DNA of 49,644 nt from Clostridia bacterium. Lineage in GTDB: Bacteria; Bacillota; Clostridia; Monoglobales; Monoglobaceae. The position numbers were made by a program, and so were the translations under genes. The stretch is taken from the NCBI GenBank assembly GCA_017436245.1, contig JAFSDN010000011.1:1-49644 (forward strand). Direction: 5' to 3'. Below the pieces are notes generated by a model, which saw only the letters and a list, made by a program, of their open reading frames with translations, did not search any database and was not told the origin of the DNA. Of this stretch, positions 9,119 to 49,644 are shown in pieces; position 1 is the first letter of the stretch; every line of letters begins with the position of its first letter.

Positions 9119-9141
9119 CTGATTCCTCCTCTGACAAGATT

Positions 9142-9422
9142 ATAACGAATGTCTTCAGTCGGAATAGCGATATATCGCTATTCCACGACAGCAAATGCTT
9201 TGCTGTCATGAAAACTATTTCTCAAAATAGTTTTCGAAGACTTCGTTGTAATGAAGTGTCGGGAATTTGCTACGCAAATTCCTTGTCAAAACAGAGTTTT
9301 GACGCAGGAAAACATTGAAAATGTTTTCCCGCACGACGCATTCATTATAATAGTAGTCGGTGAAACGCATTTGCGTTTTTTGTTTGCGATGTATCGCTAT
9401 TCTGACTGAAGACATTCGTTAT
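9142..9422. repeat. Two-lobed multi-hairpin repeat element, complete copy
   Basis: A 281-bp element with 37-bp terminal inverted repeats (2 mismatches; they begin ATAACGAATGTCTTCAGTC) flanked by direct repeats GATT (9138-9141 and 9423-9426), as after insertion. Inside, lobe A is closed by GTCTTC (9151-9156) with GAAGAC (9236-9241) and holds three hairpins: 9161-9184, 9187-9207, 9211-9234. Lobe B is closed by 9246-9261 with 9334-9350 (16 pairs, one bulge) and holds three more: 9262-9282, 9285-9303, 9307-9329. A further hairpin is AAACGCA/TGCGTTT (9363-9378). No ORF of note. The partial copy at 49514 shows compensated substitutions. MITE-like mobile element or structured RNA gene; not identified. 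Confidence 0.85.
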
Positions 9423-9464
9423 GATTAGTATTCCCTGAAAAGTAAAATAAAACCCTGCTTTCAC

Positions 9465-9522: not shown

Positions 9523-9927
9523 ATGGCAGAAAATGCAGAAAAGGGCTTTGGCTACATTGTTGTTCAGGTATCCACGGCAGACAGCGCAATACCCGTACCG
9601 GGGGCAAATGTGCTTGTTTCGCAAAATGCCGAGGGTGGCGAGGCTTTGGTGTCGATTATGAAAACTGACCGCAACGGAAAGACCGAAGCCTTGAAGGTGG
9701 CGGCGCCATCGGCGGAAAATTCACTTACCCCTGAGGGAGTAAACAGGTTTTTCAAGTATAATATCCGAATTGATTACCCGGGGTATTATACGGTTGAGAA
9801 TGTTAATGTTCCCGTGTTTGAAGGGCAGACGTCAATTCAGCCGGTGGCGTTGATCCCTCTTGAGGAAAGCCGTGAAAGGGGAAGAATTGTGAGATTCACC
9901 GAAGAAGAACCCTTTGAAAATGAATAA
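9523..9927 (+). CDS. Small beta-domain protein (carboxypeptidase-regulatory-like), probably envelope or spore associated
   Basis: A 134-residue protein without signal peptide or membrane helix. It reads like a single carboxypeptidase-regulatory-like/Ig-like beta sandwich: 'GYIVVQV..PVPGANVLV', a 'TDRNGKTEAL' turn, and 'YNIRIDYPGYYTVENVNV'. Such domains usually mediate protein contacts. GAGGAG precedes the ATG. The gene begins a unit with two peptidoglycan-binding proteins (23 bp to the next start, which has its own site), and a mother-cell-type promoter may lie upstream. A role in assembling a spore layer is inferred from context only. Confidence 0.6.
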   Translation: MAENAEKGFGYIVVQVSTADSAIPVPGANVLVSQNAEGGEALVSIMKTDRNGKTEALKVAAPSAENSLTPEGVNRFFKYNIRIDYPGYYTVENVNVPVFEGQTSIQPVALIPLEESRERGRIVRFTEEEPFENE

Positions 9928-16836: not shown

Positions 16837-16887
16837 GCAAAAGCGGCATATGGGCTTTGCTTGAAAAAAATAGAGAAAAAAGAAAAA

Positions 16888-17032
16888 TGGTTCCTTAACA
16901 AATGTTGGGGTTTAGTACAAAAAAGATGTTTCGACTACGCTCAACATGACCTTGCACCGACAAGCTTTAGTCATTCTGAGCGCAGCGAAGAATCTTTACA
17001 AAGCATTTACCCCAACATTTGTTATAGAACCA
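16888..17032. repeat. MITE-like palindromic element
   Basis: A 145-bp element with terminal inverted repeats of 24 bp (2 mismatches) at 16888-16911 and 17009-17032; the 16-bp core TAACAAATGTTGGGGT is perfect. The inside carries two related arms, GACTACGCTCAACATGAC and GTCATTCTGAGCGCAGCG, the latter shared with the element at 11943. Different termini with the same inner word suggest nested or modular repeats. Confidence 0.72.
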
Positions 17033-17035
17033 GAA

Positions 17036-17076
17036 AAAAGCCGGGGCTTCGATGCGAAGCCCCGATTTGTTTTTTT
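17036..17076. terminator. Bidirectional terminator
   Basis: GGGGCTTCG (17043-17051) pairs with CGAAGCCCC (17055-17063), with an A-run before and a T-run after. It can serve the AEC transporter on the plus strand and the Cys-rich peptide genes on the minus strand. Confidence 0.8.
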
Positions 17077-18327: not shown

Positions 18328-18369
18328 TATAAGGTAGTGGCAGATGACTGCCGGTATCGTAGAAAATAG

Positions 18370-18480
18370 CTTTTTGTGACTGACGGAATTAGTGGGTATG
18401 AACCACGTGGAAGCAAAAAGTTTGAATTATGTCGACCGTCTGGGCAGTCCTGTATTAATACTACAGGACTGCCCCTTTTT
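18370..18480 (+). promoter_or_regulatory. ZTP (pfl) riboswitch with terminator
   Basis: Hallmarks of the ZTP/ZMP-sensing pfl motif: first stem CTTTTT (18370-18375) with AAAAAG (18415-18420), GTGACTGACGG inside it, and the highly conserved CCGTCTGGGCA (18436-18446). GACGG (18382-18386) can pair with CCGTC, the known pseudoknot. A terminator follows directly: GGGCAGTCCTGTA with TACAGGACTGCCC and a T-run to 18480. Ligand binding should block the terminator and switch the purine operon on when AICAR/ZTP accumulates through lack of 10-formyl-THF. Confidence 0.9.
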
Positions 18481-18593: not shown

Positions 18594-18626
18594 TTTGGAT
18601 TATGAAAATACGAAAGGATGATATAT

Positions 18627-49513: not shown

Positions 49514-49644
49514 ATAACGAACGTCCTCAGTCGAAATAGCGTAATTACACTATTTCACAGCAGCAAACATTTTGCTGCCATGAAAATTATTTCGAGAAAT
49601 AATTTTCGAGGACTTCGTTGCAATGAAGTGCCGGGAATTTGCCA
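49514..49644. repeat. Two-lobed multi-hairpin repeat element, second copy (cut by window edge)
   Basis: The first 131 bp align without gaps to 9142-9272, with 24 differences by eye. Lobe A is kept: GTCCTC (49523-49528) with GAGGAC (49608-49613), and hairpins 49533-49556, 49559-49579, 49583-49606. Half the differences fall in six compensated base pairs. It sits 8 bp after the terminator of the SLH gene. Confidence 0.85.

Follow-up and report, generated by a model that had tools for sequence, protein, structure and literature searches.

We describe here a family of short repeats represented by a hairpin-rich stretch in a 49,644-nucleotide window, which is the whole of contig 68 in the 1.81-Mb genome (74% complete) of a Clostridia bacterium (G000), Oscillospiraceae-like and from rumen or colon. 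With a probability of about 0.7, we take this family to be a non-autonomous, MITE-like set of mobile elements built of modular cloverleaf lobes and moved in trans over a 2-bp AT by a recombinase or transposase encoded elsewhere. The dispersal of the copies, their precise insertion at AT (two empty sites), their conserved fold, the hybrids and the change of lobes at a fixed position between two species were observed directly; from these we infer mobilization in trans by an enzyme acting over the 2-bp AT.

The original prediction had named multiple copies in the host as a supporting result, and sequence searches of the genome recovered about 25 dispersed copies (about 12 of type A, 12 of type C and one hybrid), the multiplicity within a single genome that characterizes MITEs. 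These counts are minima; contigs of G000 and of a second genome (G008; L110–L113) begin or end inside elements. The elements break assemblies, with several contig ends in both genomes falling within them, e.g., at 49514–49644 of the window. Type A is about 205 bp long (AACGAATG...CATTCATT) and corresponds to positions 9144–9346 of the window; type C is about 182 bp long (AATCATTG...CTACTATT), with 12 full copies in G000. Both consist of two cloverleaf lobes, in each of which a closing stem encloses three hairpins. Across the family, element lengths are about 182–277 bp and only short, spurious open reading frames are found, in keeping with the small size and non-coding nature of MITEs. The terminal inverted repeats of type A (AATGAATG/CATTCRTT) are short and imperfect, and those of type C are weaker. 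Insertion is seen in either orientation, and nearly all copies are intergenic, like the window copy; for several of them, the end of a gene is only a few bases away. The regular two-lobed design is kept across copies, which bears out the earlier view that this is not a MITE of the simple-hairpin kind.

Every feature originally read from the window copy is present at its coordinates: the 37-bp inverted ends (9142–9178/9386–9422; 40 nt and 93% complementary when extended), two lobes of three hairpins each (closing stems 9151–9156/9236–9241 for lobe A and 9246–9261/9334–9350 for lobe B), one further hairpin, and GATT on either side (9138–9141 and 9423–9426). The lobe A stem is prolonged outward by the pairing of AACGAA (9144–9149) with TTCGTT (9242–9247). 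Folded as RNA, the 281-nt strand reached −145.6 kcal/mol against −62.3 ± 4.7 for dinucleotide shuffles (z −17.7), with z-scores of −15.2 for the opposite strand and −15.4 for the A part alone folded as DNA. The 281-bp stretch is thus real and far beyond chance. Within this strand, the lobe A stem competes for the same bases with the 37-bp stem that joins the two ends, and only one of them can form: the lowest-energy fold has the end-to-end stem and leaves lobe A open, the closing of which costs 28 kcal/mol. When the A element is folded by itself, lobes A and B both close.

What did not hold was the equation of the 281-bp stretch with the element, as the natural unit is the two-lobe A or C element and, the window copy is a chimera of a complete A element (9144–9346) and a 72-bp hybrid mini-lobe (9349–9420; Table 1). 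Positions 9345–9397 show a 96% match to the outer end of C lobe 2, and positions 9386–9422 are an inverted copy of the A left end at 9142–9178 (95%); the C2 and A parts of the mini-lobe are fused at the 12-nt GCGATRTATCGC (9386–9397), which is contained in both lobes. Since the left end of A recurs in inverted form at the end of the mini-lobe, the 37-bp inverted repeats are secondary, a by-product of rearrangement, and they are peculiar to this copy, with the other copies having short and imperfect inverted ends. The C2/A hybrid mini-lobe would have been joined to an A+B element, probably via template switching at the same 12-nt sequence, thereby giving rise to the long inverted termini.

Table 1. 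Features of the family in the window (coordinates are positions in the 49,644-nucleotide stretch).
Feature	Position	Strand	Basis and remarks
Left AT of insertion site (TT-AT-AA)	9142..9143	.	AT before 49/52 distinct outer ends; single AT in natural empty sites
Lobe A, outer end left, inner end right	9144..9247	+	Closing stem 9144–9156/9236–9247; hairpins about 9161–9184, 9187–9207, 9210–9235; folds; covariation in A copies, helices 1–4
Inner junction dinucleotide GT between lobes (TT-NN-AA; GC in most copies)	9248..9249	.	Alignment of A copies
Lobe B, inner end left, outer end right	9250..9346	+	Closing stem around hairpins 9262–9282, 9285–9303, 9304–9332; helices 5 and 7 covary, 8 invariant, 6 changed on one side only
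AT common to complete A element and appended mini-lobe	9347..9348	.	Sequence; outer-end scan
Hybrid mini-lobe, C lobe 2 outer end fused to inverted A left end	9349..9420	+	Sequence matches, fold
Terminator-like hairpin with T-rich tail, within mini-lobe	9362..9379	+	Consensus match only; 0.5 expected by chance
Right AT of insertion site	9421..9422	.	Sequence; outer-end scan
Second A copy: lobe A and start of lobe B, cut by contig end	49514..49644	+	

The stems are preserved through compensatory changes in both types, a result that the original prediction had listed as supporting it. In the alignment of C (19 copies, five genomes), paired cells make up 96.5%, and 16 pairs (52 cells) are changed on both sides, compared to 8.1 pairs and 13.8 cells in shuffled controls and at most 5 and 8 in slid ones. 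The C closing stems covary too (e.g., columns 103/185, with GC in 12 copies and AU in 6), and the individual lowest-energy folds show the two-lobe plan in nearly all 19. Likewise, 98.7% of cells are paired in the 11 A copies, with 12 pairs and 30 cells double-changed versus 7.0 and 10.7 upon shuffling. A covariance model built from C alone matches A copies with E-values down to about 1e-11, indicating that the architecture is common to both types. Thus, A and C, with little sequence in common, keep the same eight-helix, two-cloverleaf plan through compensatory changes. None of the outcomes by which the original prediction was to be overturned, namely a single copy, missing covariation or a match to a known element, was observed.

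The insertion sites showed a consistent signature. AT lies directly at 49 of the 52 distinct outer ends, usually inside TT-AT-AA, and two natural empty sites have a single AT where the occupied forms have AT on both sides, i.e., the target-site duplication of a MITE. In the first case, a C copy sits within another repeat as CTCAAC-AT-[element]-AT-GAC, and 11 aligned unoccupied copies of that repeat read CTCAACATGAC or CAGAATGAC. In the second, a C copy splits an integrase gene, which, when joined with one AT, matches phage integrases over the full length; in each of the five integrase records listed, the match covers precisely as many bases as expected. Most orthologous empty sites in G008 are too diverged for the join to be read to the base. 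In principle, the AT could belong to the element rather than to a duplication, with the two empty-site cases alone speaking against this. The window copy, GATT-AT-[element]-AT-GATT, fits the AT rule. Hence, the proposal that GATT is the insertion duplication was set aside: GATT occurs as such in the window copy only, and the AT adjacent to the element accounts for this copy and nearly all others. A TA duplication of the IS630/mariner-like kind was likewise rejected, as the native sequence at one site (C37) is CAACATGAC, which is without TA. The element opens with AA and closes with TT; on entering TT-AT-AA, it therefore restores that sequence on either side, and this accounts for the frequent back-to-back arrangement of A and C elements. 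Such tandems with a common TTATAA are present at several loci. In G005 (L064, L068), C elements abut A/B-type lobes at TTATAA in the same tandem layout as in G000.

The lobes behave as modules. Each meets the flank at an outer end TT-AT-AA and its partner at an inner end TT-GC-AA (occasionally TT-GT-AA), and the standard element is a head-to-head pair, A+B or C1+C2. Hybrids of the form A+C2 (G000 C67), C1+B (G008 C12) and A/C2-like+B (G005 C36) always keep AT-type outer and GC-type inner junctions, and a solo, deleted B lobe is flanked by AT (G000 C22). Further, lobes differ between two species at matching sites. At one of these, G000 has A with a mostly deleted B (C64) and G008 has C1+B (C12), with the same exact boundary and flanks, each of about 1 kb, that show 90.4% and 90.5% identity. 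At the other, lobe A in G000 (C5) faces lobe C1 in G008 (C46), with a flank 98.4% identical over 244 bp. As lobes share little sequence outside their common ends, ordinary homologous recombination does not explain the swap. A hot spot that received separate insertions could also account for the same-site differences. We also raise, quite tentatively and as an unlikely mechanism at present, a lobe-cassette exchange in which some recombinase would swap whole lobes in place, recognizing the folded lobe and using TT-AT-AA outside and TT-GC-AA inside as sites with matching 2-bp cores.

Of the alternatives to a family of modular lobes moved in trans, the one that survives best, though we deem it doubtful, is an ordinary MITE of a DDE-type transposase: a deletion derivative of an insertion sequence with a 2-bp AT duplication, in which the lobes would be incidental palindromes and the hybrids would have formed by template switching at TTGCAAT. 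The short inverted ends, the 2-bp flanking repeat, the AT-rich target and the intergenic position all agree with it, and template switching between palindromes is visible in both the window copy and the deleted C64 copy. However, incidental palindromes would not be expected to keep one eight-helix plan in the largely unrelated A and C types, and the replacement of lobes at matching sites breaks off precisely at the outer end, a point without flank homology. Moreover, no insertion sequence with these ends was seen in the G000 assembly.

A structured non-coding RNA or cis-regulator whose gene has spread and whose transcript is under selection is in our view very unlikely. While it would account for the strong folding and covariation, and a promoter-like −10 stands directly upstream of some copies (e.g., C75), insertion occurs in both orientations, with copies inside a repeat and a gene, the ends are nearly symmetrical, and C models score on both strands. 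DNA hairpins can be corrected by template switching or template-directed repair of palindromes, giving rise to compensatory changes; hence, the covariation points to a fold that matters or is copied and does not establish RNA as its functional form. A known RNA family was discounted, with no Rfam family scoring above the gathering level and sub-threshold matches appearing at permissive settings only. The absence of an Rfam match or a named family agrees with the initial impression that no known family has this layout. The least probable reading is that of a REPIN/PATE-like element moved by a Y1 (HUH, IS200/IS605 or RAYT) transposase reading end hairpins on single-stranded DNA: the inverted arrangement of hairpin-rich halves and the strong single-strand DNA folding would suit it, but IS200/605-type insertion leaves no duplication, in contrast to the AT on both sides here, and Y1 transposases had no match in the carriers G000, G001 and G003 (incomplete metagenome-assembled genomes), with several in the non-carriers G002, G004 and G006.

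Under the preferred reading of mobilization in trans, an enzyme encoded elsewhere would recognize the folded or AT-rich ends and join DNA over the 2-bp AT. Insertion would rebuild TT-AT-AA at both ends, enabling later copies to dock beside earlier ones, and lobes would be exchanged at matching 2-bp cores, AT outside and GC inside. The 2-bp sequence common to the element junctions and the target, as looked for in a serine recombinase substrate, is AT; an enzyme of another class that duplicates 2 bp would produce an identical footprint. What makes a serine recombinase an appealing candidate is its strand exchange over a 2-bp shared sequence, together with the hybrids' constant AT outer and GC inner junctions. 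Nearly every genome of the genus has serine recombinase genes (PF00239), with two in G000 and none in the carrier G003, which precludes naming such an enzyme by co-occurrence; no element ends were found at the fetched PF00239 loci. The occurrence of the element across the nine genomes of the genus is matched by neither Y1 transposases nor serine recombinases, and a Y1/RAYT driver is accordingly disfavoured. In the 74%-complete G000 assembly, no autonomous partner with these ends around a gene was found. The original suggestion of a recombinase or transposase substrate stands as far as behaviour goes, with no enzyme gene tied to the element.

We investigated the distribution of the family by BLAST against 148 relatives and with the covariance model against 38 genomes of the family, 51 of the order and 391 of the class, the class search scoring about 6 candidates per genome, such that weak relatives could be missed. 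Among the genomes searched, full elements were found in one genus only (G000, G008, G001, G003 and G005). The named carriers are rumen or colon metagenome-assembled genomes, namely Oscillospiraceae SIG451 and Clostridia RGIG5380, RGIG7510 and RGIG8795. In another genus of the same family (G025), a single C1-like lobe with two hairpins lies ahead of an efflux-transporter-like gene (L092, 1501–1593); this may represent a lobe on its own or else an ancestral leader element. Searches of viral contigs, plasmids and phages returned no match to the element, and such an origin was rejected.

The window copy fills the gap between the DUF421 gene and the gene at 9523. The proposed effect on the expression of either gene is possible, judging by this placement and one terminator-like hairpin near chance level. 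The window also has other structured features. Positions 16885–17040 hold a copy of a different family of short inverted repeats, which are about 145 bp long with ends GGTTCTTTAACAAATGTTGGGG/CCCCAACATTTGTTATAGAACC and occur more than 30 times in G000; a C element sits within another copy of this repeat elsewhere in the genome. Positions 18366–18452 are a ZMP/ZTP riboswitch (Rfam RF01750) just ahead of the purE-like gene at 18618, which starts a run of purine biosynthesis genes. On another contig of G000 (C26; L083, about 1300–1500), an intergenic region rich in hairpins carries repeats of the GTGATATT hairpin type; it has no sequence relation to the elements described here and may constitute a further multi-hairpin repeat family.

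Among known systems, Tn3-type ends give 5-bp duplications, and RUP is an IS630-type MITE with a TA target. MITEs such as RUP resemble the present elements in being short, AT-rich, non-coding, intergenic and dispersed, with short inverted ends and a target duplication, but differ in that the target here is AT, a two-lobe, six-hairpin plan is conserved and no partner insertion sequence was found in G000. The nearest published analogue for modular mosaics, set beside ours by description, is the BOX elements of Streptococcus, in which boxA and boxC surround a variable number of tandem boxB units (PMC3049150). These too are small, non-coding, modular mosaic repeats of stable structure whose modules vary between loci, and they cluster with and insert into other repeats (PMC3049150); in contrast, the present lobes stand head to head at TTGCAA, are exchanged whole and have 2-bp AT flanks. 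REPINs and RAYT-mobilized REPs (PMC3116915, PMC2817692) are likewise dispersed, intergenic, inverted pairs of structured halves, but their halves are 20–40-nt hairpins, compared to cloverleaves of about 100 nt here, and the host assembly has no Y1 transposase. The IS607 serine transposase exchanges strands over a 2-bp GG common to the element end and the target (PMC6188088); such an exchange over AT would leave the footprint seen here, although IS607 is without terminal inverted repeats and encodes its own enzyme. TIMEs, the Tn3-derived miniature elements (PMC4133298), are also non-autonomous and build mosaics, but they have Tn3-type ends and are without cloverleaf lobes. In the literature searched, which covered few subscription journals, no named family has two head-to-head cloverleaf lobes.

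The element works like a MITE and most of the definition of one applies to it. The usual description of bacterial MITEs is that of single hairpins or short mosaics, and it is mainly through the exchange of lobes at fixed sites that this family goes beyond an ordinary one. Should the folded lobes prove to be what a recombinase acts on, the family would represent a new form of cassette exchange in which non-coding DNA is guided by its structure, and the defined 2-bp cores lend themselves to a plasmid assay. Even on the ordinary reading, the family, with its conserved stems, precise empty sites and swapped modules, offers a clean case for understanding why mobile repeats keep structure.
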